Shown one piece after another: positions 3,653 through 22,124 of a stretch of 24,652 nucleotides of DNA. The DNA comes from a virus, in IMG/VR virus record IMGVR_UViG_3300008266_013090, positions 1 through 24,652 of that record; one strand, given 5' to 3'. The position numbers and the translations under genes are program-made. The stretch's first letter is position 1, and every line of letters begins with the position of its first letter. Under the pieces are notes generated by a model. That model made no database searches. It saw only the letters and a program-made list of their open reading frames with translations, and was not told the origin of the DNA.

Positions 3653-5089
3653 ATGAAAGAAGGTTACATTCCCCAAGAACAAAGGAAAAAGATCTTATTT
3701 CTTTGCGATGATATCAGAATGCACTCTGGTATTGCTACAATGGCAAGAGAAATTGTAATTGGAACATCTCACAGATATCAGTGGTTTAATGTTGGTGCTG
3801 CTATCAAACACCCAGAACAAGGTAAAATTATTGATGTAGCAGAAGACACAAACAATCATGCAGGTATAACAGATTCATGGGTAAAAATACTCCCTATTGA
3901 TGGATATGGTACTCCTGATTTAATTAGAGATCTAATCAAACATGAAAAACCAGATGCTATATTTTTCTTTACAGATCCAAGATATTGGATTTGGTTGTTT
4001 CAAGTTGAAAATGAATTTAGAAAAAAATTACCATTTATTTACTTGAATATTTGGGATGACTTACCTGCTCCACTCTACAATGAGCCCTACTATGAGTCAT
4101 GTGATGCTTTATTAGCAATTAGTAAGCAAACAGAAAATATTAATAAATTAGTATTAGGTGATAAAGCAAAAGATAAAGTTATTGCTTATGTACCTCATGG
4201 TATTAATGAAAAAATATTTTTCCCCGTTAATATAAATCATAGTGAACACTCTAAGTTACAAGAAATTAAAAAAGTACTTTTTGGAGATAAAGAGTATGAG
4301 TATGTTATTTTTTATAACGCTCGTAATATTAGAAGAAAGTGTGTATCTGATTTAATTGTAGCTTATCAAACATTTATAGATGGACTTACAGATGAACAAG
4401 CTAGTAAATGTGCTTTAGTACTACATACTCAACCTGTTGATGAACATGGTACTGATTTAATTGCTGTTAAAGATTTGATATGTAATGAAAAAGCAAACAT
4501 ATTTTTCTCTAATAACAGAATATCATCTCAAGAACTTAATTTAATATATAATTTAGCAGATGTATGTGTTTTACCATCATCTAATGAAGGATGGGGATTA
4601 AGTATTACTGAAGCAATGATGGCTGGTAAAATGATTATTGCTAATGTAACTGGTGGGATGCAAGATCAAATGCGTTTTGAAGATGAAAATGGTGAATGGA
4701 TTAAATTTGATAAAAATTTCTGTTCAAATCATTTTGGAACATATAAAAAATGTGGTGAGTGGGCTATACCAGTATTTCCAAGTAATAGTTCACTTGTTGG
4801 TTCTCCTCCGACCCCCTATATTTGGGATGATAGATTAGATTTCAGAGACTTAGCTAAAGCACTTAAAGAATGTTTTGATTTAGGTAAAGAGGAAAGATCA
4901 AAACGTGGAATGTCAGGACATAATTGGGCTGTAAGTGATGAATCAATGATGTCAGCAAGATGGATGTGTAAAAATGTTATTAAATATATTGACCAAACAC
5001 TTGAAAATTGGAAACCAAGAAAATCATTTGAATTAATCAAAATAGAAAAATATCCAAAGAAAAAATTACGTCACAAATTAGTATATTAA
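3653..5089 (+). CDS. GT4-like (GT-B fold) glycosyltransferase
   Basis: A 478-residue glycosyltransferase of the GT-B fold, GT4-like. The N-terminal Rossmann half starts with KKILFLCDDIRMHSGIATMA, the glycine/serine-rich acceptor-side loop. The C-terminal half carries the E-x7-E nucleotide-sugar motif EGWGLSITE (E312 and E320), followed by AMMAGK. Such enzymes transfer a sugar from an NDP-sugar to a growing glycan. It opens the glycan cluster, with an A-rich leader (3627-3652) and 3 nt between its stop and the next gene. Donor and acceptor are not predictable. The C-terminal ~40 residues are basic and could associate with membrane or partner proteins. Confidence 0.88.
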   Translation: MKEGYIPQEQRKKILFLCDDIRMHSGIATMAREIVIGTSHRYQWFNVGAAIKHPEQGKIIDVAEDTNNHAGITDSWVKILPIDGYGTPDLIRDLIKHEKPDAIFFFTDPRYWIWLFQVENEFRKKLPFIYLNIWDDLPAPLYNEPYYESCDALLAISKQTENINKLVLGDKAKDKVIAYVPHGINEKIFFPVNINHSEHSKLQEIKKVLFGDKEYEYVIFYNARNIRRKCVSDLIVAYQTFIDGLTDEQASKCALVLHTQPVDEHGTDLIAVKDLICNEKANIFFSNNRISSQELNLIYNLADVCVLPSSNEGWGLSITEAMMAGKMIIANVTGGMQDQMRFEDENGEWIKFDKNFCSNHFGTYKKCGEWAIPVFPSNSSLVGSPPTPYIWDDRLDFRDLAKALKECFDLGKEERSKRGMSGHNWAVSDESMMSARWMCKNVIKYIDQTLENWKPRKSFELIKIEKYPKKKLRHKLVY

Positions 5090-5092
5090 GTT

Positions 5093-6385
5093 ATGTCAAA
5101 ACCATTAGTTGTAGTTAGTTGCCCCATTGATACATTCAGTGGATACGGAGCACGTTCAAGAGATATAGTTAAAGCATTATTTAAAATAGGCAAATATGAT
5201 GTCAAAGTATTACCTCAAAGATGGGGAAGTACTCCATATGGTGCTTTAGATGAAAATGATCCTGAAGAAAAACAAATATTAGATAATTATTATCCTACTC
5301 CTCAATTACAATCCCAACCAGATGTTTGGATACAAATTACAGTACCAAATGAATTTCAACCATTAGGGAAATACAATATTGGTATTACTGCTGGTATTGA
5401 AACTACATTATGTAATCCTACCTGGTTAGAAGGTGTTAATAGAATGAATTTAACACTAGTGTCATCTAATCATGCCAAAAAGGTATTTGAAGAATCTAAA
5501 TTTGAAAAAAGAAATAAACAAACAAATGCTTTAGAAGGTAAACTAGAATTAGAAAAACCTATTCAGGTATTGTTTGAGGGAGCAGATTTAAATAAGTATT
5601 TCCCCATTGAAGATAACGATTTGCCAGATGATGAATTAGTTCTCGAATTAGATGAAATAAAAGAAGATTTTAATTTTCTATTTGTTGGACATTGGTTACC
5701 TGGTGGGTTTGGAGAAGATAGAAAAAATGTAGGATTAATGATTAGAGTATTTTTGGAAACTTTCAAAAATAAAAAAGATGCTCCTGGATTAATATTAAAA
5801 GCAAATCATGGTCCTTGTTCTGTAATGGATAGAGAAGAGGTATTGAAAAAAATAGATGCTATTAGAGAGCAAGTTAAAGCAAACACTTTACCTAACATTT
5901 ACTTACTACATGGTGAGCTAGAGGATGAACAAATGAATTATTTATATAACCATCCTAAAGTAAAAGCAATGATTTCATTTACTAAAGGTGAAGGATTTGG
6001 TCGCCCATTACTTGAATTTACATTAACTAAAAAACCATTGTTAGCATCTGGATGGTCTGGTCATTTAGATTTCTTAGATATTGAATTTGCTAATTTAATT
6101 CCTGGTGAAGTTAGACAGGTAGAAAAAAGTGCTGTTAATGATTTTATTTTAGAACAATCAGGATGGTTTAATATTGATCAAGGACATGCTTCTAAATCAA
6201 TGGAAGATATGTTTAAAAATTATAAAAACTATCTTGATAAAGCTAAGCAATTAGCCTTTAGAAATAAAAATAATTTTTCATTAGAAAAAATGACTGATAA
6301 ATTAGAAACAATATTTGAAGCATTTGTTCCTAAAAAAGTCGAATTAATATTACCTAAAATAGATAAAATTGAATTACCAAAATAA
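5093..6385 (+). CDS. Second GT-B type glycosyltransferase
   Basis: A 430-residue GT-B glycosyltransferase. The N-terminus (PLVVVSCPIDTFSGYGARSR) carries the SGYG loop expected near the acceptor site. The C-terminal domain holds FLFVGHWLPGGFGEDRKN, a typical start of the donor domain, and the E-x7-E motif EGFGRPLLE (E300, E308) followed by GWSGHLDFL. It differs clearly from the preceding GT4 enzyme, so it is not a simple duplicate. The two genes are separated by 3 nt. After its stop there is a 54-nt gap containing a weak inverted repeat (AGGTGGA / TTCACCT, around 6389-6408). Confidence 0.85.
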   Translation: MSKPLVVVSCPIDTFSGYGARSRDIVKALFKIGKYDVKVLPQRWGSTPYGALDENDPEEKQILDNYYPTPQLQSQPDVWIQITVPNEFQPLGKYNIGITAGIETTLCNPTWLEGVNRMNLTLVSSNHAKKVFEESKFEKRNKQTNALEGKLELEKPIQVLFEGADLNKYFPIEDNDLPDDELVLELDEIKEDFNFLFVGHWLPGGFGEDRKNVGLMIRVFLETFKNKKDAPGLILKANHGPCSVMDREEVLKKIDAIREQVKANTLPNIYLLHGELEDEQMNYLYNHPKVKAMISFTKGEGFGRPLLEFTLTKKPLLASGWSGHLDFLDIEFANLIPGEVRQVEKSAVNDFILEQSGWFNIDQGHASKSMEDMFKNYKNYLDKAKQLAFRNKNNFSLEKMTDKLETIFEAFVPKKVELILPKIDKIELPK

Positions 6386-6439
6386 TACAGGTGGAGTAGT
6401 ATTCACCTATTCAAATAACACTTATAACGTAAATATTGT

Positions 6440-6901
6440 ATGGAAGACAATTTAGTAATATGTCCTAAATGTGGTAGCGATGCTTGCTACAAAACACCCA
6501 TAAACGAATTTCATTCAAATTATGCTTGTTTTGGATGTGGTTTTCAAACTTCAGATTTAATTAGACAAGGTGAATTTAATTTTGAAGAATATGACCAATC
6601 ATTACCTTATCTTTATGTTGATATAAAACATACTGATAATGAAGGTCGCGTTTGGTATCCTCAATCAGTTAATATTGAAAACCAAGGTACAGTTTTTGCT
6701 TATGGTAAAAACAAAGATGAATGGAAATGGGCAGCAGTAGTAATGACTGAAGTTAAAGAAGAAGAAAAACATAAATTTAAAAAACCAGGCACAGACGAGT
6801 ATTATACTCATAAAACAGATATGAAATCACTTAAACTATTTGAACGAAACAATTTTATGGATGCCCTTGAATTTATTGGGGTATTCAACAATCAAAATTA
6901 A
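6440..6901 (+). CDS. Zinc-ribbon phage protein of unknown function
   Basis: A 153-residue protein with an N-terminal zinc ribbon (CPKC at 8-11, then C30 and C33 in ACFGCGFQTSDL; C16 is an extra Cys). The rest is a beta-rich domain with several Trp and Tyr residues (RVWYPQSV, EWKWAAVVM) and an acidic/basic linker. It resembles conserved unknown proteins of T4-like marine phages, but I cannot name a family. It lies between glycosyltransferase genes, and the following gene begins 5 nt after its stop. Its role could be structural or nucleic-acid related; nothing links it directly to glycans. Confidence 0.7.
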   Translation: MEDNLVICPKCGSDACYKTPINEFHSNYACFGCGFQTSDLIRQGEFNFEEYDQSLPYLYVDIKHTDNEGRVWYPQSVNIENQGTVFAYGKNKDEWKWAAVVMTEVKEEEKHKFKKPGTDEYYTHKTDMKSLKLFERNNFMDALEFIGVFNNQN

Positions 6902-6905
6902 CATT

Positions 6906-7538
6906 ATGGCTAGCATTTCATTTGCTATTACAGCATGTAACGAACACGTAGAGTTAAAACGCCTATTAGATCAAATTGTATCTATAATTAAACCTGAAGA
7001 CGAAATAATGGTTCAGTTAGATACAAATGCTACAGATGAAGTAAAAAAATTAATAGATTCTTATAACGTTGGAACACCATATGAATTTCATAGAATATAT
7101 TTTGGGTTAAATGGTGATTTTGCTTCATTTAAAAACAATCTTAAGAAACATTGTACACGTGATTGGATTTTCTTTATTGATGCTGATGAAACCTTAAATT
7201 ATTATTTCGCTAAGAATATTCATGAGTTTTTGGAATTAAACAAAAATATAGTTGATGTAATATCAATTCCAAGAGTTAATAAAGTAAATGGTTTAACTGA
7301 AGAACACATTTACAAATGGAGATGGTTTGTTGATGATAGAGGATGGGTTAATTGGCCTGATTATCAAACACGTATATGTGCCAATAAAAAAGATATTTGG
7401 TGGGTTAATAAAGTACATGAGCGCTTAAATGGATTTAAAACATCAGCTCAACTTCCAGCACTAGAAGAATGGTCTTTAACTCACATCAAGGATATTAATC
7501 GTCAAGAAAAACAGAATAAGTTTTATGAAAATCTATAG
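6906..7538 (+). CDS. GT2-like (GT-A fold) glycosyltransferase
   Basis: A 210-residue GT-A glycosyltransferase. It starts with ISFAITACNEHVELKRLL, the usual GT2 nucleotide-binding start, and has the metal-binding DxD as DADE (D92/D94) after DWIFFI. A later WWVNKVHERL segment resembles the conserved C-terminal part of WaaE/KdtX-type GT2 enzymes, which add sugars to LPS core. The true start is ATG 6906; an upstream in-frame extension overlaps the zinc-ribbon gene and lacks domain content. The 3' end overlaps the GT10-like gene by 14 nt. The donor is unknown. Confidence 0.82.
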   Translation: MASISFAITACNEHVELKRLLDQIVSIIKPEDEIMVQLDTNATDEVKKLIDSYNVGTPYEFHRIYFGLNGDFASFKNNLKKHCTRDWIFFIDADETLNYYFAKNIHEFLELNKNIVDVISIPRVNKVNGLTEEHIYKWRWFVDDRGWVNWPDYQTRICANKKDIWWVNKVHERLNGFKTSAQLPALEEWSLTHIKDINRQEKQNKFYENL

Positions 7539-8406
7539 TAGTTATTTACCTATAGAACGTTATGAACGTGAAATTAGTTCTATCGAACGTTTTAAGGATA
7601 AACCCATTACAATATTTAATGATTTTATTCCTCGTGAAACTGGTCATCTTAGTGAAATTAATTTACTTATACTAAATGAACCTAATGAGTTATTTGGGTT
7701 ACATACTTTTGCTAAAAATAACTACCAAGCATTTTCTGCTATAATGAGTTGGGATGAAGAAATGTTAGGTGACTTACCTAATTATGTTTTATTCCCTCAT
7801 GGTGAAACTAATCTAGATATTGAATATATAAATACTTTTGAAACTAATCCTGAACGTGAGTTTGGAGTTACTTTTTTGAGTGGCATCCTTGAAATGTTAG
7901 AAGGACATAAGTTACGTCAGCGCATATTAGCTAAAGGAAATGAAATAAAAATATCTAATAATTGGTGGAAAACACTTGATGATTTTGATCATGAAAAAGG
8001 ACAACGCCCTGGATATTTTGAAACTAAAATAGGTCCAAATGGTAATCCAATTGAGGGTGATGGTAAAAAACAAGTATGGAATACCAATAAAATGTTCCAT
8101 GTTGCTGTAGAAAACTCAAAACATAAACATTATTATACAGATAAAATATTAGATTGTTTTGGAACTAAGACATTACCAATTTATTGGGGTGCTCCAAATA
8201 TGAGTGATTGGTATGATGAACGTGGTGTTATCTATTTTAATGATGAAAATGAGTTAGTAGAAATTATTAATAAACTTACTCCTGATGACTATTATAGTAG
8301 ATTGCCTTATATAGAAACCAACTATAACTTAGTTAAAGAGCAAGGATTCTTTTTTAAACGAGTAGAAAATTATTTGGATAAGTTAATTTTCTATAATAAA
8401 TTGTAA
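7525..8406 (+). CDS. GT10 alpha-1,3-fucosyltransferase-like enzyme
   Basis: A 293-residue protein whose C-terminal half carries the GT10 donor-site signature: FHVAVENS (E196, N197, S198), then a Y-x-D-K element (YYTDKILDCF), then LPIYWGAPN (P218 to N225). This corresponds to the ENS...YxTEK...PIYxGxPN pattern of alpha-1,3/1,4-fucosyltransferases that use GDP-fucose. The N-terminal half (acceptor side) is divergent. A GDP-fucose-synthase-like reductase is encoded 3.3 kb downstream in the same array, which supports fucose as donor. It overlaps the upstream GT2 gene by 14 nt. Confidence 0.85.
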   Translation: MKIYSSYLPIERYEREISSIERFKDKPITIFNDFIPRETGHLSEINLLILNEPNELFGLHTFAKNNYQAFSAIMSWDEEMLGDLPNYVLFPHGETNLDIEYINTFETNPEREFGVTFLSGILEMLEGHKLRQRILAKGNEIKISNNWWKTLDDFDHEKGQRPGYFETKIGPNGNPIEGDGKKQVWNTNKMFHVAVENSKHKHYYTDKILDCFGTKTLPIYWGAPNMSDWYDERGVIYFNDENELVEIINKLTPDDYYSRLPYIETNYNLVKEQGFFFKRVENYLDKLIFYNKL

Positions 8407-8408
8407 AC

Positions 8409-8810
8409 ATGGAAAGAAAATATTTACCCACATTATCAGAACTAGTAGACAGATTATCTATTAGTCAACTTAAAGAGGTATTCATTGCTGATCATAAAGA
8501 TGAATACGCTCAAGAAATTAAAGATATAACTCATGACATTCAGTTATTGTTGAATGAACAAGAGGGAAAAGTAACAGCTGAAACAATCAGAGCGATTGTA
8601 GTATTAGCTCAAATGAACTTACATATTTGGCACAATGAGTCCAATTATCGTAAGGGAATTAAAGATGGTAATAACCTAGAGTTAACTCATGGTTTAAATG
8701 GAATTAGAAATACTGCTAAAAACAAAATACAAGAAGTAGTTGGTGGTAGAAAAGATTATAAAATTGACTGCTTAGCAGCAGATTTTAAAGACTGGGAAAT
8801 TAGTTGGTAA
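8409..8810 (+). CDS. Conserved T4-like phage protein of unknown function
   Basis: A 133-residue, mainly helical soluble protein. Highly regular blocks (LPTLSELVDRLSISQLKEVF, IRAIVVLAQMNLHIWHNES, GLNGIRNTAKNKI) look like a strongly conserved domain and resemble a protein I associate with T4-like cyanophage surface-glycan clusters. No catalytic motif is evident, although His/Glu/Asn residues in the central helix (HIWHNES) could form a site. It lies 2 nt after the fucosyltransferase-like gene and 1 nt before the sugar kinase, so it is probably part of the same pathway operon. Confidence 0.75.
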   Translation: MERKYLPTLSELVDRLSISQLKEVFIADHKDEYAQEIKDITHDIQLLLNEQEGKVTAETIRAIVVLAQMNLHIWHNESNYRKGIKDGNNLELTHGLNGIRNTAKNKIQEVVGGRKDYKIDCLAADFKDWEISW

Positions 8811-8811
8811 T

Positions 8812-9567
8812 ATGAAGAAACCTAAGATATTAGTAGTTGGAGATAGTTGTATGGATGTTTACGTTTATGGTAAATGTCTTAGAATGTGCCCTGATGCTCC
8901 TGTACCAGTAATGGTACCACAAGAAACAATTACATATTCTGGTATGGCAGGTAATGTAGTTAGAAACATTGAGGCTTTAGGAGCTAAAGTAGATACTCTA
9001 ACTAATAAAGAACAAATATATAAAACTAGATACGTTGATTCTAAAACAAACCATATGTTTATTAGAGTTGATACTGGTGAAGAACATATCGCTCGAGTTA
9101 GAGATTTAGAAAAAATTAATTTTAAAGCATATGATGCCGTTGTTATAAGTGATTATTGTAAAGGCTTCCTTGAAGAAGATGATATTGCTTATATAGCTGA
9201 AAATTCATATCGTACATTTTTAGATACTAAAAAAGTTATTAATAATATATTTGTTGATAATGTTAGTTTTATTAAAATTAATGAAGGTGAATTTGCCAAA
9301 TGTAGAGGACATATTTCACAAAAAGTATTAGATAAAACTATTGTTACTATAGGAGGATTAGGATGTATCTATAAAGGTGAAGTATTTCCTGTACAAAAAG
9401 TAGACGTTAAGGATAATACAGGTGCTGGTGATACATTTTTATCTGGCTTAGTAGTTAAATTCTGCCAAACAGGTGATATGAAAAAAGCAATTGAATATGC
9501 TAATAAATGTGCTACTTATGTAGTACAAAGAAAAGGAACAACAATCGTTAACCCAAATGAAATATAA
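8812..9567 (+). CDS. hldE: HldE N-domain-like heptose-7-phosphate kinase (PfkB family), shortened
   Basis: A 251-residue PfkB-family sugar kinase closest in style to the N-terminal domain of HldE/RfaE. It has VVGDSCMDVYVYG, the CPDAPVPVM equivalent of RfaE's SPEAPVPV, a GMAGNVVRNIEALGA glycine block, VISDYCKG and the catalytic anion hole NTGAGDTF. HldE phosphorylates D-glycero-D-manno-heptose-7-phosphate at C1 on the route to ADP-heptose. The usual domain is about 315 residues; roughly 35-40 are missing between the NIEALGA helix and the KTRYVD strand, and other loops are short. The matching nucleotidyltransferase is a separate gene at 13429. Fold is certain; substrate probable only. Confidence 0.8.
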   Translation: MKKPKILVVGDSCMDVYVYGKCLRMCPDAPVPVMVPQETITYSGMAGNVVRNIEALGAKVDTLTNKEQIYKTRYVDSKTNHMFIRVDTGEEHIARVRDLEKINFKAYDAVVISDYCKGFLEEDDIAYIAENSYRTFLDTKKVINNIFVDNVSFIKINEGEFAKCRGHISQKVLDKTIVTIGGLGCIYKGEVFPVQKVDVKDNTGAGDTFLSGLVVKFCQTGDMKKAIEYANKCATYVVQRKGTTIVNPNEI

Positions 9568-10136
9568 TGGAATACAAATTTAGTAATGTAATTACAGACG
9601 TAGCTATTATTGACCCCTTCAAACACTATGATTACAGGGGTGAATATATAGAAACATACAACAAAAAGTTTTATGAAGTTTTTCACTATAATGCTAAAGC
9701 ACCTACTGAATGGGTACAAGATGATGTTAGTACATCAGTTAGAGGCACATTAAGAGGACTTCATGGTGATAGTAAAACATGGAAACTAGTTCAATGTTTA
9801 TATGGTAGTATGCTTGCTACTATTGTCGATATGAGACATGATTCACCTAGCTATTTAAAATGGATTCAGATACCCATTAATGATAAAAATAGAACTCAAA
9901 TATTAATACCTGCTGGATGTGCTAATGGACATTTAGTAATGAGTGAATTTGGTATTTTTAGCTATAAACAATCTGAATATTATTCAGGTGCTGAAAACCA
10001 ATTTACTGTTAGATGGGATGATCCAGCATTAAACATAACTTGGCCTATTCAAAACCCAATTTTATCTGAAAGAGATAAATCAGCAAGATATTTAGAATTT
10101 AAAGACACTTACCATTTATTTTTACCCAATGTATAA
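9567..10136 (+). CDS. RmlC-like dTDP-4-dehydrorhamnose 3,5-epimerase family protein
   Basis: A 189-residue cupin of the RmlC family, near full length (about 180). Family markers are YDYRGEYIETYN, VRGTLRGLH (H66, equivalent to the catalytic His), LIPAGCANGHLVMSE (H122), FSYKQSEYYSGAE with the catalytic-Tyr region, VRWDDPALNI and ILSERDKSA (D170). These enzymes epimerise C3/C5 of NDP-4-keto sugars during rhamnose or related 6-deoxysugar synthesis. Rhamnose pathway partners RmlA, RmlB and RmlD are not clearly present, so the substrate may be another keto-sugar. It shares one base with the kinase stop and overlaps the next SDR by 8 nt. Confidence 0.85.
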   Translation: MEYKFSNVITDVAIIDPFKHYDYRGEYIETYNKKFYEVFHYNAKAPTEWVQDDVSTSVRGTLRGLHGDSKTWKLVQCLYGSMLATIVDMRHDSPSYLKWIQIPINDKNRTQILIPAGCANGHLVMSEFGIFSYKQSEYYSGAENQFTVRWDDPALNITWPIQNPILSERDKSARYLEFKDTYHLFLPNV

Positions 10137-11070
10137 AGTATTAGTAACCGGTGGAGCAGGTTATATTGGCTCCGTATTAGTAGAAGCTTTATTAAACAGA
10201 AAATACGACGTTACTGTTGTTGATAGTTTAATGTATAAGCAAACATCATTGACTCAATATTGTCATTTACCTAACTTTAAGTTTGTTAAGGGAGATGTTC
10301 GTAATTGGGATATGATGAAACCATTAGTTGATGAAGCTGATGTAATTATTCCTCTTGCTTGTATAGTAGGAATGCCCGCTTGTAAAAAGTATCCTGAATT
10401 AACTTTAGATACAAATCAGGTAGCAATTGAATGGTTAGCTCGTAATACTAGAGATGATCAAAAAGTTATTTTTCCAACGACAAATAGTGGATATGGTATT
10501 GGTCAAGATGGTATTCATTGTACTGAAGAAACTCCATTAAAACCAATTTCATTGTATGGAGTTACTAAGGTTAAAGCTGAAGAGGCATTATTACAAAGAG
10601 GTAATGCTATAACATTTAGATTAGCTACTGTGTTTGGTATGTCTCCAAGAATGAGATTAGATTTATTAGTAAATGACTTTACTTACAAAGCATTCAAAGA
10701 TAAATACATTGTATTATTTGAATCACATTTCAAACGTAACTTTATTCATATTAGAGACGTTATCAAAGCATTTTTATTTGCTATTGATAGATTTGATCAA
10801 ATGAAAGGCAAAGCATATAATGTTGGTTTAAGTACAGCTAATATCAGTAAAAAAGAATTATGTGAAGCGATTAAACAATTTGTTCCTGATTTTCACATAG
10901 CTGAATCCGAAATCAATGAAGATCCAGATAAACGCAATTATATTGTTTCTAATGCGAAATTAGAAGCATTAGGATGGCAACCATCCCATTCATTAGAGAG
11001 TGGAATTGAAGAATTACTTAAGGCATACCCAATAATTGATGCATCAAATAATAATTTTACAAACTTATAA
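10129..11070 (+). CDS. NAD-dependent epimerase/dehydratase (extended SDR)
   Basis: A 313-residue extended short-chain dehydrogenase/reductase that modifies a nucleotide sugar. The Rossmann motif is GGAGYIGS (8-15), with VVDS at the end of beta 2 suggesting NAD(H). The catalytic elements are TTNS (117-120) and Y143-x3-K147 (YGVTK). RNFIHIRDV corresponds to the nucleotide-sugar binding region. It overlaps the RmlC-like gene by 8 nt and precedes the methyltransferase by 2 nt. The reaction (4-epimerase, 4,6-dehydratase or reductase) cannot be chosen from sequence alone; the lone TNSGYG replaces the TSS seen in many epimerases. Confidence 0.85.
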   Translation: MYKVLVTGGAGYIGSVLVEALLNRKYDVTVVDSLMYKQTSLTQYCHLPNFKFVKGDVRNWDMMKPLVDEADVIIPLACIVGMPACKKYPELTLDTNQVAIEWLARNTRDDQKVIFPTTNSGYGIGQDGIHCTEETPLKPISLYGVTKVKAEEALLQRGNAITFRLATVFGMSPRMRLDLLVNDFTYKAFKDKYIVLFESHFKRNFIHIRDVIKAFLFAIDRFDQMKGKAYNVGLSTANISKKELCEAIKQFVPDFHIAESEINEDPDKRNYIVSNAKLEALGWQPSHSLESGIEELLKAYPIIDASNNNFTNL

Positions 11071-11072
11071 AC

Positions 11073-11702
11073 ATGTTAGAAACATTAAAAGGCCTCTTTG
11101 AGGAAAAGAAAAATAGAAAAGGAAGTGATATTGCTGGTCATTTACCTTTGCTTCTTGAATTAGTAGAAGCAAAAAAACCAAAAATAATTATCCATGCTGG
11201 TATTAGGGATGGACATTCAGGAGCAGCTTTTGCTCTTGGAGCTTATAATGTAGGAGCTACATTAATAGATGTTGATATGAATGATTATCAAAATCTAGAC
11301 GACTCAAAATACAATTTTCAAGATTTAAGATCAAAGTTACCTTTTTGGTCATTTACTCAGGGTAGTACTGAAGAAGTATTTCCTAAATTAATTAATTTGA
11401 AAGGTCAAGTTGATATTTTCTTTACTGATACTTCTCACAACTATGAAGATACAAGATTTGAACTATGGAACTACATGCAACTATTATCACCAACAGGAAT
11501 TATTGTAATGCATGATATGGACCCTTGGGCTCATTTTGCTGATCAAGCAAGAGCAACAGATGAATGGTTAAAAGCTTGCTCAGAATGGAAAGTTAAAGTA
11601 CAAAAAGGAAATAATGGTATGGCTGTATTTTATCGCGATGAAGCACATTTGTGTGGAGTAATTTGTGATAATCAGTTACCTATTGGATCTCATACAGTAT
11701 AA
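11073..11702 (+). CDS. Class I SAM-dependent methyltransferase (Methyltransf_24-like)
   Basis: A 209-residue Rossmann-fold methyltransferase. The SAM-binding loop is HAGIRDGHSG (41-50), with His replacing the acidic residue usual before the glycine motif. LIDVDM (65-70) is the acidic end of beta 2. FFTDTSHNYEDTRFELW followed by LLSPTGIIVMHD matches the D-x-x-H-x-Y...HD pattern of the Methyltransf_24/cephalosporin-hydroxylase-like group often found in polysaccharide clusters. It probably O-methylates a sugar. It ends on a shared base with the next SDR gene. Confidence 0.8.
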   Translation: MLETLKGLFEEKKNRKGSDIAGHLPLLLELVEAKKPKIIIHAGIRDGHSGAAFALGAYNVGATLIDVDMNDYQNLDDSKYNFQDLRSKLPFWSFTQGSTEEVFPKLINLKGQVDIFFTDTSHNYEDTRFELWNYMQLLSPTGIIVMHDMDPWAHFADQARATDEWLKACSEWKVKVQKGNNGMAVFYRDEAHLCGVICDNQLPIGSHTV

Positions 11703-12583
11703 TGAAACGAATATTAATCACAGGAGGAACTGGGTTTGTAGGTAAAGCATTAGTACCTGCTTTAAAAACTGAATATGAAGTGGAAGTGGCTGATAGCCAT
11801 AACATGAAAGGAAAATTATTTGATTGTAGTAGAGAATATGATTATATTATTCATATGGCTGTTAAAACAGCCGCAGGTGGATATTGTCAAAATCATAGTG
11901 GTGAGCAATTCTTAATAAACACAGACATCAATAATGCTTTTTTTCAAGGATGGAAAAATTGTTTTCCTAGTGCTAAAGTAGTTACTTTTGGTTCATCTTG
12001 TGGTTACGATGCTAATGTTGAAAAAACAGAATCCAACTATCTAAAGGGGGAAGCTGAACCTGGATATGAAGTGTATGGTAATATCAAACGTCATTTACTT
12101 GTTGGATGTCAAGCAATGAATAAGGAATATGGTATGCAATTTAGTTATCTTATTCCTTCTACGTTGTATGGTCCAAATTATGAGTTAAACGATAGACACT
12201 TTATATTTGACTTAATTAGAAAAATAGTAGATGCTAAACAGAATGGGAGTGAGGTTGTTTTATGGGGTGACGGATACCAACGACGTGAGTTAATTTATAT
12301 TGATGACGCTGTTAAAATAATAAAACAAGCATTAACTTGGAATTTACAAGTATGTAATTTATCCTCAGGGCAGGATTACTCAATTAGAGAGTATGCCCAA
12401 ACAATTTGTAATATAGTTGGATATGACTTTAATACTATTAAGTTTGATACTAATCAGTTTGTGGGTTCGTTATCGAAGAAAATGATTAACACCCATTTAA
12501 CAGATTTTCAGTTTACCTCTTTAGAGGAAGGATTAAGAAAAACAATTGAATATTATGTCAGTAGGAGCAGTAGTAGTAAATAG
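11702..12583 (+). CDS. GDP-L-fucose synthase-like SDR
   Basis: A 293-residue extended SDR with GDP-fucose synthase (GMER/Fcl/WcaG) signatures. It has GGTGFVG (8-14), GSSCGY with the catalytic Cys (C100), Y125-x3-K129 in YGNIKR, LIPSTLYGPNYELNDRHF with the conserved catalytic His (H166), and WGDGYQRRELIYIDDA. GMER converts GDP-4-keto-6-deoxymannose to GDP-L-fucose using NADPH. The enzyme's partner, GDP-mannose 4,6-dehydratase, is not seen in the window and may be supplied by the host or elsewhere in the phage. It fits the GT10-like fucosyltransferase at 7525. Its 3' end overlaps the next gene by 29 nt. Confidence 0.82.
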   Translation: MKRILITGGTGFVGKALVPALKTEYEVEVADSHNMKGKLFDCSREYDYIIHMAVKTAAGGYCQNHSGEQFLINTDINNAFFQGWKNCFPSAKVVTFGSSCGYDANVEKTESNYLKGEAEPGYEVYGNIKRHLLVGCQAMNKEYGMQFSYLIPSTLYGPNYELNDRHFIFDLIRKIVDAKQNGSEVVLWGDGYQRRELIYIDDAVKIIKQALTWNLQVCNLSSGQDYSIREYAQTICNIVGYDFNTIKFDTNQFVGSLSKKMINTHLTDFQFTSLEEGLRKTIEYYVSRSSSSK

Positions 12584-13442
12584 AAATGATGGATATAAAG
12601 ACTTTGAACGTGGTATTATCCATTTCAAATCGATGTTAGATACATTCGATGAAGTATTTTATATTGATTGGAACTCACCTTCAGGCTCATTTTTTTGGGA
12701 AATCAAAGATCAATTACCTAAAACAGGTAAATTAAAACATATTGTTATTCAACCTCATATCGCTAATATTTTAACGCAGGGTGATCCTCGAGCACAACAA
12801 TGTAACGAAGCAATAAGTAGAAATATTGGTATCAGACGTTTATCAACTGATTTTATAGTGTCAACTAATATTGATATAATTGCTCCTAAACGAGAAGATT
12901 TAGATAGATTAATTCAATCAATGGGTAGTGAATCATTTGTTACTGTTTCAAGACGTGAGGCACCCAAGGATGTAGTTTACAAATATGGTAAAGATAATTG
13001 GCGTGAATTAAGAGAAGAATTATGTAATACAATTCCAGAACGTCATTTCCCAGCTCAAGTAACACCTAACGACGTTTATTCAATGATTAATTGCTGTGGT
13101 GACTTTCAAATAGCACATTCTAAAGTATGGCATTGGATTAGAGGATTCGAAGAATCAATGTTATATCAATGTTTTTGTGATACTAATGTTCAAAAGAAAG
13201 CATCAATAAATAACTTTACATTAGCTACTGCTTATGAACCTGCTTTATTTCATATGGAACACGGAGCATATTTTACTAAGGAAGATGGAACACGTGTTGC
13301 TGATCCTGAAAATAAAGGTGCATTTAAGGGTGAAACCAAAGCATATAATGATGCTTGGAAGTATGTAGAATTTTTTAACGAAACTGATAACACCGAATAT
13401 TGGGGTTTAGGTGCAACTGAAATTGAATATGAAATCTACTAG
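12555..13442 (+). CDS. GT-A type glycosyltransferase-like protein
   Basis: A 295-residue protein resembling a glycosyltransferase-A or nucleotide-diphospho-sugar transferase domain. It begins SVGAVVVNRNDGYKDFERGI, followed by EVFYIDWNSPSGS (the sugar-nucleotide loop), a NIDI element (105-108) at the place of DxD, and a later CCGDFQIAHSKVWHWIRGFEE block like the C-terminal acceptor part of galactosyltransferase-type GT-A enzymes. Start ATG 12555 lies inside the end of the preceding SDR gene (29-nt overlap). The DxD is not canonical (NxD), so metal use is uncertain. Donor unknown. Confidence 0.7.
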   Translation: MSVGAVVVNRNDGYKDFERGIIHFKSMLDTFDEVFYIDWNSPSGSFFWEIKDQLPKTGKLKHIVIQPHIANILTQGDPRAQQCNEAISRNIGIRRLSTDFIVSTNIDIIAPKREDLDRLIQSMGSESFVTVSRREAPKDVVYKYGKDNWRELREELCNTIPERHFPAQVTPNDVYSMINCCGDFQIAHSKVWHWIRGFEESMLYQCFCDTNVQKKASINNFTLATAYEPALFHMEHGAYFTKEDGTRVADPENKGAFKGETKAYNDAWKYVEFFNETDNTEYWGLGATEIEYEIY

Positions 13443-13839
13443 AGTATTTGTTAATGGAACATTTGATGTTCTACATTATGGGCATTTTAGATTACTAGAA
13501 GCAGCTGCTGAATTAGGTAATAAATTATATGTTGCTATTGATACCGATGAGCGTATTAAAGAAAAGAAAGGTGAACACAGACCATTTCATAACATAATGG
13601 AGCGTAAAGAAATGCTTGAATCAATCAAATGGGTTGACAATGTATTTGCTTTTGGTTCAGATAATGAATTAATAACATTAATCAGAGCAATTGACCCAGA
13701 CATTTATGTTATTGGAAGCGATTATAAAAATAAACCAATAGTAGGAAGTGAATATCTTAGAAATATAGTATTCATCCCCCGTATAGAAAAATTTAGTACA
13801 ACAAAAATAATGAATTATGAAGCAACCACTAGTATTTAA
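13429..13839 (+). CDS. hldE: HldE C-domain-like cytidylyl/adenylyltransferase
   Basis: A 136-residue HxGH nucleotidyltransferase. Motifs are GTFDVLHYGH (H16-x-x-H19), the HRPFHNIMERKEML block characteristic of RfaE domain II and TagD-like proteins, YVIGSDYKNKPIVGSE, and FSTTKI near the C-terminus. RfaE2-type domains adenylylate heptose-1-phosphate to ADP-heptose; TagD makes CDP-glycerol. The YVIGSDY-KP-VGS region matches RfaE2 better. With the kinase at 8812 it would complete a split HldE. ATG 13429 is chosen over an upstream GTG frame extension; it overlaps the previous stop by 14 nt, and its own 3' end overlaps the cupin gene by 23 nt. Confidence 0.82.
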   Translation: MKSTRVFVNGTFDVLHYGHFRLLEAAAELGNKLYVAIDTDERIKEKKGEHRPFHNIMERKEMLESIKWVDNVFAFGSDNELITLIRAIDPDIYVIGSDYKNKPIVGSEYLRNIVFIPRIEKFSTTKIMNYEATTSI

Positions 13840-14980: not shown

Positions 14981-15350
14981 TGCGTTGCTCAACACCTCAA
15001 CTTCTTTAAAACGCAAAAAGAAAAATACAGCTGATAGAAAACGTGAAATGTTTCTACAGATAGTTACTTTATGTGAAGCAGTAATTACACGTGAGGTATT
15101 ATTAGCTGCTGATTTTAAATTACAATTAGATAATTACAACGAGGATTTTTATCAAATTATAGATTCATTATTATTGCTTTATTTAGGTAAAAATGGATTT
15201 GAATTAGTATCATTTTATCTATATGATAGAATCAATCCAGATGGTACTATTAATTATCTATTAGATGAGAACCAAAATGAAGTTAAATTGGAAACAGCAG
15301 AAGATTTATTTAACTTACTTTGTAAAATAAACCCATTGTTGTTTGATTAA
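14937..15350 (+). CDS. Conserved phage protein of unknown function
   Basis: A 137-residue protein with a basic Lys-rich stretch near the N-terminus (LKRKKKNTADRKRE), a helical core and a C-terminal block with regular spacing (GFELVSFYLYDRINPDGTI then LETAEDLFNLLCKI). The latter looks conserved and reminds me of uncharacterised proteins of T4-like cyanophages, but I cannot assign a role. It overlaps the upstream gene by 44 nt and shares one base with the next start (TAATG), so translation is probably coupled across this block. Confidence 0.65.
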   Translation: MSQPDRNEELKRAFDALLNTSTSLKRKKKNTADRKREMFLQIVTLCEAVITREVLLAADFKLQLDNYNEDFYQIIDSLLLLYLGKNGFELVSFYLYDRINPDGTINYLLDENQNEVKLETAEDLFNLLCKINPLLFD

Positions 15351-15982
15351 TGTTACCTAAACCACTCAGCAAAGAAGATATATTACGAGCAATGCGCGTT
15401 ACAAAAAGTAATCGCTCAGCGGCTCGTTATTTAAATTGCTCATATCAACACTATAAAAAGTTTGCTAAAATATTAGTTGATGAAGCAAGTGGTAAGTCGT
15501 TATTTGAATTACATAAAAACCAAGCAGGTAGAGGTATTAATAAATTTATGTCCAATAAGGGTAAAGAACCAGCATTGGAAAAAATACTATCAGGTGAGTT
15601 GTACATTGAATCTTATAGTGTAAATAAACTTAAGAGTCGATTAATACAAGAAGCTATACTACCCGAAGCATGTTGTAAATGTGAATTTAACGAGCAACGT
15701 GTAACTGATTATAGAGTACCATTATTATTGAATTATAAAGATGGGAATAAGAAAAATTGGAAATTAGAAAACTTAGAATTACTTTGTTATAATTGTTATT
15801 TTCTATTTATTGGAGATGTTTATAGCAATAAACAAATATTATCAATTGAAGACTATGTTGATCAACCCAAAACAGCTCAGGTTGATTGGGAGTTAGATGA
15901 ATATACTAAAGAACATCTCAAACAACTAGGATTAATGGATGATGAAAAAACAAACGGAGAAGAATTTATAAATTACTTATAG
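15350..15982 (+). CDS. HTH plus degenerate HNH-like zinc protein
   Basis: A 210-residue protein. The N-terminus (KSNRSAARYLNCSYQHYKKFAK) has a helix-turn-helix pattern. A central region keeps HNH zinc ligands C108-x2-C111 and C146-x2-C149 and the DGN...LENLELLC scaffold. The catalytic HH pair expected before DG is replaced by N128-Y129, and the final His of the NCH motif by Y150, so nuclease activity is doubtful. It may instead be a sequence-specific DNA-binding protein, possibly a transcription regulator. It shares one base with the upstream gene and is followed after 1 nt by the sulfotransferase. Confidence 0.7.
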   Translation: MLPKPLSKEDILRAMRVTKSNRSAARYLNCSYQHYKKFAKILVDEASGKSLFELHKNQAGRGINKFMSNKGKEPALEKILSGELYIESYSVNKLKSRLIQEAILPEACCKCEFNEQRVTDYRVPLLLNYKDGNKKNWKLENLELLCYNCYFLFIGDVYSNKQILSIEDYVDQPKTAQVDWELDEYTKEHLKQLGLMDDEKTNGEEFINYL

Positions 15983-15983
15983 T

Positions 15984-16988
15984 ATGATATTACCACAGCT
16001 TAAAATAATGTTTGTAGATATACCTAAAACGGGTTCTAGTTCTATTAAACAATTTTTGTTTGAAAGTCTCGGGAAAAATTTTACAATTACAGGAGCTTCT
16101 AGTCCTTTATGGTTAAATAAATTTTGCCCCGAGTATGTTACTCCTATTTCTAAATTAAATGAAAAAGGAATTACAGTTCCAGCAAATAGACATGAACCTC
16201 TATCTTCACGATATAATAATATACATTATATTAATGACTACTTTATATTTTCAATTGTTAGAGATCCTTTTACTCGCTTTAAATCAGCGTTTATGGAATT
16301 TATGGTTAATATATACTATGATTTAAAAGGAAATTCAATGGATCATGGAAATGTATTAACAAATAAATTTCATTTTCCTGATACTTGGATAACACTTCGT
16401 GATGGGGATAATGATGTTTTAGATTTTCTTTATAAAAAACAATCATCATTAATTTTTAACAAATTAAGAATAATACATGCTAAGGGGGGATTTGAACTAA
16501 ATAATGCTTGTACTGTTCCTTTACATTTATGGCCTCAATATTATTTTACTAATTTAGTAATTCCAAATCCAGTTAATATTTTGCTTTTATCTTTTGAAAA
16601 TTTAAATAATGATTTTTCTAACTTAAAATCAGAAATATCTCGTTTTTCAGGAATAGATGTTGAAAAATATGAATTACCTAATGTTAATCCTTTATCAACC
16701 CAAGTATTCTCTTGCTTAAATCCTTCAGCCTTTAATACTATAGCTCCTGGAATGCCTATGGAATCTATAGAATTTGGTCCACAACCTAAAGCAAACGAAA
16801 AGTTTATTAAAGCATATCCTACATATCAAGATTTTCTTCCTGATTTTAACAAACAAGTAAAAGAATTAGAAAATCAATTTCTACCAGTAATTGAAGAACA
16901 TCGTTGGTTAATAGAACAATTGTACGCTGAGGATTATAGGAGATTTGGTTATGCACAACAGAATATAAAAGATTTACCTATTTTATAA
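15984..16988 (+). CDS. Sulfotransferase family protein (first)
   Basis: A 334-residue PAPS-dependent sulfotransferase-like protein. The 5'-phosphosulfate loop is FVDIPKTGSSSIKQF (from residue 10, with PKTGSSS at 14-20) and the 3'-phosphate-binding block is FIFSIVRDPFTRFKSAF (R93, S101), with the usual spacing of about 75 residues. Similar proteins sulfate carbohydrates. It follows the HNH-like gene by 1 nt and ends the operon: a 29-nt palindrome and a strong promoter follow. The sulfo donor could be made by the APS kinase at 20369. The long insert between the two motifs is divergent and the acceptor is unknown. Confidence 0.82.
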   Translation: MILPQLKIMFVDIPKTGSSSIKQFLFESLGKNFTITGASSPLWLNKFCPEYVTPISKLNEKGITVPANRHEPLSSRYNNIHYINDYFIFSIVRDPFTRFKSAFMEFMVNIYYDLKGNSMDHGNVLTNKFHFPDTWITLRDGDNDVLDFLYKKQSSLIFNKLRIIHAKGGFELNNACTVPLHLWPQYYFTNLVIPNPVNILLLSFENLNNDFSNLKSEISRFSGIDVEKYELPNVNPLSTQVFSCLNPSAFNTIAPGMPMESIEFGPQPKANEKFIKAYPTYQDFLPDFNKQVKELENQFLPVIEEHRWLIEQLYAEDYRRFGYAQQNIKDLPIL

Positions 16989-20368: not shown

Positions 20369-20848
20369 ATGATATATTGGTTCACAGGACAACCAGGACA
20401 TGGTAAAACAACATTAGGTAAAGAATTATATGATTACCTAAAAACTCATGGTGAAAAAACCATAATTATAGATGGTGACCAATTAAGAGATATTTTCAAA
20501 AATGTTAATTACGGAAAGGAAGGTAGAATTGAAAATATTAAGCGTGCTCAAACTATAGCTAAATTCCTCCACTATCAGGGTTATTACGTGATAGTTGCTC
20601 TTGTAGCTCCGTATAAAGATGTTAGAGATGAATTTAAAGTTGAAATGCAAAACAACCTGGTTGAAGTATATGTTCACACTAGTGTGGAACGAGGACGTGA
20701 AAGTTACTTTGTATCTGATTACGAACCTCCTGTTTCTAATTACATTGATGTGGATACTACTGAATCATTAACTGATTGTTTTTATAAATTAGTAAACCAA
20801 TTAACGAGTTATGGCAATTTTCCACGCTACAGCAGATCCAAAGCTTAA
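20369..20848 (+). CDS. cysC: Adenylylsulfate (APS) kinase, CysC-like
   Basis: A 159-residue P-loop kinase of the APS kinase family that phosphorylates adenylyl-sulfate to PAPS, the donor for sulfotransferases. Walker A is FTGQPGHGKTTLGKEL (GQPGHGKTT at 7-15). IIDGDQLRDIF (D35-G-D37, R40) is the usual DGDxxR site. GRIENIKRAQTIAKFLHYQGYYVIVALVAPYK matches the APS-binding ENIRR block and lid-side strand, and SDYEPP the conserved YEPP near the C-terminus. It is shorter than E. coli CysC (about 200) because the region before YEPP is reduced. It overlaps the next gene by 38 nt. Confidence 0.88.
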   Translation: MIYWFTGQPGHGKTTLGKELYDYLKTHGEKTIIIDGDQLRDIFKNVNYGKEGRIENIKRAQTIAKFLHYQGYYVIVALVAPYKDVRDEFKVEMQNNLVEVYVHTSVERGRESYFVSDYEPPVSNYIDVDTTESLTDCFYKLVNQLTSYGNFPRYSRSKA

Positions 20849-21209
20849 GATAGAAGGTAAGCAGTATTCAATGTTTATTGGTCGTTGGCAACCATGGCAT
20901 GCAGGTCATCGTTGGCTAATAGATCAAAGACTAAACGAAGATAAAAACGTATTAATTTGTATCCGTGATATCAAACCGGATGAAAAGAACCCGTTTACTG
21001 CTCAAGAAGTAGAAGCAAATATTAAGAAAGAATTATGGGAATTAGTAGGCAAAGAACGAGTTAAAGTATTAGTTATTCCTGATATTGAATCAGTTAATTT
21101 TGGACGTGGAGTGGGTTATGACATTATTGAACATGAACCACCTACTGAAGTAAAAGAAATCTCAGCTACCAAAATTAGAGAACAAATGAGATTAGAAGGT
21201 AAGTTATAA
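20811..21209 (+). CDS. HxGH nucleotidyltransferase-like protein
   Basis: A 132-residue nucleotidyltransferase of the HxGH class. Motifs are FIGRWQPWHAGHRWLID (H30, H33) and the C-terminal ISATKIR (117-123), which binds the triphosphate. Similar small proteins include NMN adenylyltransferases and other cytidylyl/adenylyl transferases. It overlaps the APS kinase by 38 nt and precedes the DUF2061 gene, so a role in the sulfate-activation or nucleotide-sugar route is possible, for example substituting for a missing adenylylation step. That is inference: ATP sulfurylase also uses an HxxH fold, but this protein is far smaller. NAD metabolism is an alternative. Confidence 0.75.
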   Translation: MAIFHATADPKLKIEGKQYSMFIGRWQPWHAGHRWLIDQRLNEDKNVLICIRDIKPDEKNPFTAQEVEANIKKELWELVGKERVKVLVIPDIESVNFGRGVGYDIIEHEPPTEVKEISATKIREQMRLEGKL

Positions 21210-21210
21210 T

Positions 21211-21426
21211 ATGCATGTAGAAAAAAAACGACATATAGCCAAAACTATTAGTTATAGAGTAGTTAGTACATTAATTGGTTTTGGAATAATGTGGGCCGTA
21301 AGTGGTTCAGTTAAAGTAGGAGCAGCATTTGGTATTGCTGAATTAGTTTATAAGCCACTCCAGTATTATGTACATGAACGTATTTGGTACCGTTATATTA
21401 AATACGGTTTAAAAAAAGATAAATGA
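21211..21426 (+). CDS. DUF2061 small membrane protein
   Basis: A 71-residue protein with two hydrophobic helices (TISYRVVSTLIGFGIMWAVSG and VGAAFGIAELVYKPLQYYVHERIWYRY), fitting DUF2061: KRHIAKTISYRVVSTL at the start and ELVYKPLQYYVHERIWYR at the end are its usual conserved blocks. DUF2061 proteins are uncharacterised. Here the gene is in one overlapping run with APS kinase and the second sulfotransferase (1-nt gap upstream, 4-nt ATGA overlap downstream), so a membrane role in sulfation or sulfate handling is a reasonable guess. Confidence 0.8.
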   Translation: MHVEKKRHIAKTISYRVVSTLIGFGIMWAVSGSVKVGAAFGIAELVYKPLQYYVHERIWYRYIKYGLKKDK

Positions 21427-22124
21427 GATTCAAACACTGTTATGTAATTGCAATCGCAATCCCCAAAAATGCCTCTGAATCAATTCATGAGGCATTAGCT
21501 TTTGTTTATCCAAATGGTGAACAAAATAGAATACATGAACATTATCCTTTATTTCAAGTATTAGCAGATGGAAGAGAAAATGTATCTAAATACTTTTGTT
21601 TTGCCACTGTTAGGGATCCAGTAGAACGTTTTGTTTCAGCATGGTGGTTTTTACAATGGAATACAGGAGTATTTGAGCGCCAAGCTTGGAATCCAGAAGA
21701 AAAAAGACCAGGCACACATCAATTTTTAAGCGATATAGAAACAACTATTCAGTTGTTAGAAAAACAAATTCAACCTAATGCTGATTCTGATTATGGAACG
21801 TATTGGTGTCAAGTAAGTCAAATAGATTATGTACTACATCCTCAATGGATATATTGTGTTGATGTAGATGGACTTATTCCTGAATGGATGAATATTTTTA
21901 GTTTAGATGAATTAATAAAACAATGGCCTGAACTAACTGAAAAATATTTTACATGGGGCAATTGGAAAGCACTTCCCTTACCTAAAATAAATTCAACACC
22001 ACCCGATTTAAAAAAATCAGTGGAAGAAACACTTACACATGACCAAATTCAACGTGTCAGGGCGGTATATGAAAAAGATTATAGACTTTTTTCAAAGTAT
22101 TTTGAGAAAAATTTGGTTACCTAA
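21423..22124 (+). CDS. Sulfotransferase family protein (second)
   Basis: A 233-residue sulfotransferase-like protein. The phosphosulfate loop is AIPKNASESIHEAL (PKNASES at 14-20) and the 3'-phosphate block is FCFATVRDPVERFVSAWW (R64-D-P, S72). The first sulfotransferase (15984) is 100 residues longer and only distantly similar, so the two may have different acceptors. It is the last gene of the APS-kinase run (ATGA overlap upstream). Its final codons and stop contain the upstream half of promoter P2, which fires towards the next gene. Confidence 0.82.
   Translation: MRFKHCYVIAIAIPKNASESIHEALAFVYPNGEQNRIHEHYPLFQVLADGRENVSKYFCFATVRDPVERFVSAWWFLQWNTGVFERQAWNPEEKRPGTHQFLSDIETTIQLLEKQIQPNADSDYGTYWCQVSQIDYVLHPQWIYCVDVDGLIPEWMNIFSLDELIKQWPELTEKYFTWGNWKALPLPKINSTPPDLKKSVEETLTHDQIQRVRAVYEKDYRLFSKYFEKNLVT

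Follow-up and report, generated by a model that had tools for sequence, protein, structure and literature searches.

Does a virus that carries an APS-kinase homologue next to a sulfotransferase activate sulfate for sulfation, and if so, which of its proteins would make the APS? This question is raised by positions 20369-22124 of the window, by which we mean the whole stretch of DNA analyzed here, a 24,652-base IMG/VR virus fragment whose clamp loader is about 40% identical to a T4-like cyanophage clamp loader. Four same-strand genes lie there in the order CYSC, HXGH, DUF2061 and ST1, and the window holds two further features of relevance:

20369..20848, + strand: CYSC, lid-less APS-kinase homologue (PF01583, 2e-23; AF2 model TM 0.85 to APS kinases; motifs)
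20811..21209, + strand: HXGH, small HxGH nucleotidyltransferase, proposed non-canonical ATP sulfurylase (invariant motifs; partners in relatives)
21211..21426, + strand: DUF2061, small predicted membrane protein (PF09834, 2e-16; cysH/cysD or cysC/cysQ neighbours in Bacteroidota)
21423..22124, + strand: ST1, sulfotransferase (PF03567, 6e-11; PKNASES and RDPxxRFxS PAPS-binding motifs)
15984..16988, + strand: ST2, second sulfotransferase (PF03567, 4e-12; PKTGSSS and RDPxxRFxS motifs)
3653..13839, + strand: block of glycosyltransferase and sugar-nucleotide genes, probable source of the acceptor glycan (family matches)

The gene content that a sequence-only reading had assigned to this locus (APS kinase, HxGH enzyme, DUF2061 and sulfotransferase) is borne out by the open reading frames and by Pfam, which confirmed APS_kinase, DUF2061 and Sulfotransfer_2 on CYSC, DUF2061, ST1 and ST2 and left HXGH below cut-off. 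The four genes had been described as overlapping, and this is correct for two of the three junctions (38 nt for CYSC/HXGH, 4 nt for DUF2061/ST1); between HXGH and DUF2061 there is a gap of 1 nt. The second sulfotransferase predicted at 15984 is present as ST2, and both ST1 (43 bits) and ST2 (47 bits) score well over the PF03567 cut-off of 22 and contain PAPS-binding motifs. The glycan genes also noted in that reading are real by family matches, and comprise Glycos_transf_1, Glycos_transf_2, GT10, PfkB, dTDP_sugar_isom, two epimerases and an HldE-like nucleotidyltransferase. Within this block the PfkB-type sugar kinase (8812-9567) and the HldE-like nucleotidyltransferase (13411-13839, phrog_7878) are separate genes, resembling a split HldE.

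We propose, with a probability of roughly 0.7, that the cassette synthesizes PAPS and consumes it in sulfation, with HXGH as a minimal ATP sulfurylase and CYSC as the APS kinase; the proposal is based on the gene presence, motifs, predicted folds, co-occurrence, neighbourhoods and absences documented below. In the inferred scheme the NMNAT-like HXGH would convert ATP and sulfate to APS and PPi, and CYSC would phosphorylate APS at the 3'-hydroxyl to give PAPS, pulling the unfavourable sulfurylase step. ST1 and ST2 would then move the sulfuryl group from PAPS onto a carbohydrate, whose most likely makers are the glycosyltransferases and sugar-nucleotide enzymes of the window. DUF2061 may be accessory to sulfate activation, in a mode that we leave unspecified. 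HXGH and CYSC would thus form a minimal PAPS synthase that feeds exchangeable sulfotransferases. A comparable arrangement is that of the PAPS synthases (human PAPSS; bacterial Sat-CysC and CysND-CysC), in which sulfurylase and APS kinase are one functional unit, fused in some members, and supply PAPS to sulfotransferases, as we infer for the cassette. Unlike these, the cassette has a small NMNAT-like HxGH protein rather than a PF01747 Sat or CysND, and the viral kinase lacks the lid.

The identity of the kinase is supported by fold and residues. A CysC homologue without kinase residues would have refuted the sequence-only reading; in our alignment the kinase and APS-site residues of CYSC line up with those of canonical APS kinases, and the P-loop, the Asp of the DGD motif and the APS-site Arg, Asn and aromatic residues are invariant or nearly so in 66 sequences. 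Structure prediction with AF2 likewise gave an APS-kinase fold (pLDDT 93; TM 0.85 to APS kinases 5cb8 and 7yq1). None of the 164 viral kinases has the canonical lid (KGLYKKA and the FTG segment), about 18 residues being absent, and in M. tuberculosis CysC the missing segment holds Lys562 and Phe576. The lack of the lid bearing these two residues argues against a PAPS synthase, and PAPS formation by the lid-less viral CYSC remains an inference, as no activity was measured. Cells, too, have lid-less kinases (L187, L194, SAR11), and these are partnered by the same HXGH family as the canonical kinases.

Sequence and fold do not identify HXGH, to which the sequence-only reading gave no specific function, as a sulfurylase. 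No family model matched above its cut-off: weak matches were to cytidylyltransferase, NMN adenylyltransferase and ATP-sulfurylase models, with PF01467 at 0.0013 and PF01747 at 0.074. Archaeal NMNAT was matched by the AF2 model (pLDDT 89), along some 81 columns, and came up again when the PDB was searched with a profile; neither search matched a solved ATP sulfurylase, so direct similarity to these enzymes was rejected. The protein most like HXGH in sequence and fold is archaeal NMN adenylyltransferase. With NadM (1m8j) HXGH has the HxGH fold and the GRxQPxHxGH motif in common, the latter among 15 columns invariant in 57 sequences that also include Arg R52 in IRD, GRxxGY and TxxR. The match to the NadM family is partial (41 bits, cut-off 127): the similarity ends at about residue 94, and on our reading of the sequences the next 21 or so NMNAT residues have no counterpart in HXGH. 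HXGH further differs from NadM in its sulfur-metabolism neighbours and its fusions to APS kinase. Support for sulfurylase activity, which is inferred, comes from genomic context only.

IMG/VR was scanned twice, once for each protein (CYSC and HXGH), yielding 160 loci. The absence of co-occurrence in relatives had been named as another refuting outcome; in 164 of 166 viral loci CYSC and HXGH are both present, their genes overlapping, neighbouring or in some cases fused, and they are a near-obligate pair in viruses. Of the two exceptions, L138 is truncated by the end of its contig, and the second is L115. Stenotrophomonas phage DLP6 and three Casjensviridae phages encode a single fused CYSC-HXGH protein. 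The only result of a PHROGs search was an uninformative 'kinase' family, phrog_10255 (Stenotrophomonas and Xanthomonas phages), whose proteins contain the same two domains in one chain but, unlike in the window, have no assigned function and neither DUF2061 nor a Pfam sulfotransferase adjoining. After dereplication at 90% identity (76 viral pairs), DUF2061 was found nearby in 43. In a second viral context (L016, L017, L040, L060 and similar loci) the pair, here without DUF2061, has a short conserved protein on one side and a DNA methyltransferase-like gene on the other, an arrangement that sulfation does not account for. A contig binned as Chitinophagaceae (L199, 4461-6953) carries the pair, DUF2061 and a protein resembling that at 15350-15982 of the window; the contig is probably of phage origin, which hints that the host belongs to the Bacteroidota.

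Synteny in related phages is retained for the CYSC/HXGH pair and not beyond near relatives for ST1 and ST2. Orthologues of ST1 and ST2 were found only in the window, in a contig identical at these genes (L006/L086) and in L087; their orthology was dropped as a co-occurrence test, as it covers near relatives only and other sulfotransferase families substitute. Sulfotransferase genes are exchanged between phages, not conserved. Pfam matches in 39 full virus records place PF03567, PF13469 and PF00685 sulfotransferases in several viral lineages, often directly upstream of CYSC (at 10 nt in G015, about 200 nt in G005 and G026, and 514 nt in G019). A sulfotransferase lies within 3.5 kb of the pair in seven of nine lineages, a number reached by none of 200,000 random placements. 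This test used one record for each of the nine sulfotransferase-bearing lineages, which we grouped ourselves, and Pfam matches only, and part of the result could stem from a tendency of glycan genes to cluster. Some phages (Casjensviridae; the methyltransferase context) have no Pfam-supported sulfotransferase near the pair. Home-made sulfotransferase profiles gave further candidates; the test was limited to Pfam matches because the candidates that we checked individually, members of three of these profile groups, had no Pfam sulfotransferase match. The same is true of the protein beside the cellular fusion L206, for which no sulfotransferase is claimed. Small proteins with sulfotransferase-like motifs occur near the pair in L118, L119, L141, L149, L162 and other viral loci; the checked members lack a Pfam match, and they may represent further, undescribed sulfotransferase families.

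The same records bear on the use to which PAPS would be put. Neither canonical Sat (PF01747) nor PAPS reductase (PF01507) was found above cut-off in any of the 39, although records may be fragments; sub-cut-off PF01747 matches (16 bits) in four relatives sit at the position of HXGH itself. The adjoining sulfotransferases of several families and the lack of PAPS reductase and Sat in these records favour sulfation over reduction, as the sequence-only reading had argued. The sulfated target, also an inference, is probably a phage-made or host glycan, since a carbohydrate acceptor is what the sulfotransferase family (PF03567) and the glycan genes nearby would suggest.

Prokaryote genomes were scanned as well, and HXGH turned up in Marinimicrobia, Bacteroidota, marine group III archaea, Omnitrophota, Acidobacteria, a haloarchaeon, Nitrospiraceae, SAR11 and others, though a few of the contigs may be viral. 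An APS kinase accompanies HXGH in 45 of 80 cellular loci (fused in 18, adjacent in 27), and 21 of these 45 kinases have the canonical lid motif. HXGH-APS kinase fusions are known from phages, bacteria and an archaeon. Those of L206, L216 and L254 score above the NCBIfam apsK cut-off; in L216 a Pfam sulfotransferase lies two genes upstream, and L254 has a homologue of that sulfotransferase. Another 27 of the 80 loci, all from SAR11, lack an adjacent kinase but have aprA close by, as in L220 (7959-11556), where HXGH is followed by a membrane protein weakly similar to QmoC, aprB and aprA. Two Nitrospiraceae (L201, L207) have HXGH after the gene for an assimilatory APS reductase and a sulfite/nitrite-reductase-like gene. 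No sugar genes are present in the aprBA or APS reductase contexts. APS kinase, AprBA and APS reductase, the partners of HXGH, have one metabolite in common, APS.

A canonical sulfurylase is missing from most of these genomes: among 48 that bear HXGH, five have Sat, one other has CysD, and 42 have neither above cut-off, including all 19 with aprA above cut-off. Many of the genomes and contigs are incomplete, which limits the weight of single cases, but the pattern is consistent. 'Ca. Pelagibacter ubique' was reported to have aprBA and cysC and to lack cysDN and sat (PMC5069961). Together, this gap and the absence of Sat and CysD from most HXGH genomes make HXGH a natural candidate for the ATP sulfurylase. 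We consider it probable that HXGH represents an unrecognized class of ATP sulfurylases, derived from NMNATs and about 110-130 residues long, that serves the PAPS supply of sulfation in phages as well as bacteria and archaea, and AprBA-dependent sulfite oxidation in SAR11. Against this stand the presence of Sat in five HXGH genomes and, as described above, the closer resemblance to NMNAT than to any solved ATP sulfurylase.

DUF2061 is tied to sulfate activation independently of the viral loci. PF09834 was found in 15 of 148 genomes, all from one phylum (that of a Bacteroidota genome). Within short flanks of the Bacteroidota copies (L266-L276), nine neighbour a cysH-like gene, in most cases together with cysD, and two neighbour cysC, with cysQ as well at one of these; family models confirmed four of the loci. 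These neighbours suggest a role of the membrane family in sulfate activation. Our search of open-licence papers on DUF2061 function, viral PAPS synthesis and alternative sulfurylases found nothing on the HXGH family, though prior work may exist.

Could the pair do something else? CYSC might take APS from the host and make PAPS for the sulfotransferases, with HXGH a separate nucleotidyltransferase, for instance for a sugar or lipid phosphate. The lack of above-cut-off similarity between HXGH and ATP sulfurylases and the other glycan nucleotidyltransferase genes of the window would fit such a division of labour, but it leaves the recurrent fusions to APS kinase, the aprBA and APS reductase contexts free of sugar genes, and the lack of another sulfurylase in most HXGH genomes without explanation, and we regard it as unlikely. 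The similarity to NMNATs, the best sequence and fold matches of HXGH, and an NADAR gene that adjoins the pair in a Casjensviridae phage raised the possibility of a unit for NAD salvage or counter-defence, in which CYSC would be a nucleoside kinase and HXGH an NMN adenylyltransferase. This was set aside on genomic context, as the contexts of HXGH are those of sulfur metabolism; moreover, the protein with which it is paired is, in sequence and in fold, an APS kinase, which in many cells has a complete canonical lid, and the NMNAT similarity breaks off before a segment that HXGH lacks. We judge it very unlikely.

The usual proposal for viral cysC is assimilatory sulfate reduction, as put forward for Challenger Deep viruses in the accessible part of the report (PMC9529941). 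The genes described there are, as here, short APS-kinase homologues distinct from cellular CysC, and that part of the report mentions neither an HxGH partner nor sulfotransferases. With sulfotransferases as neighbours instead, and no PAPS reductase above cut-off in the 39 records, we give this explanation very little credence for the present cassette. The last possibility follows from the loss of the lid, by which the substrate specificity of CYSC could have shifted: it might phosphorylate another nucleotide, and the cassette make a different surface modification. A precedent is the cytidine diphosphoramidate kinase of Campylobacter, reported to phosphorylate another nucleotide. Since lid-less and canonical kinases replace one another as partners of a single HXGH family, and sulfotransferases recur as neighbours, we see hardly any room for it.

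Viral cysC, filed under sulfate reduction (PMC9529941), and phage sulfotransferases, left unexplained and called unclear in function (PMC10580990), are already known; a description of HXGH as a sulfurylase was not found in the searchable open-licence literature. A self-contained cassette for PAPS synthesis and sulfotransfer would make glycan sulfation a testable phage strategy. If confirmed, HXGH would be a new enzyme family, and one with relatives in abundant ocean bacteria (SAR11). As a sulfurylase, it would change the annotation of sulfur pathways in several uncultured phyla and could allow SAR11 with AprBA and without Sat to complete sulfite oxidation, closing the gap noted for these organisms (PMC5069961).
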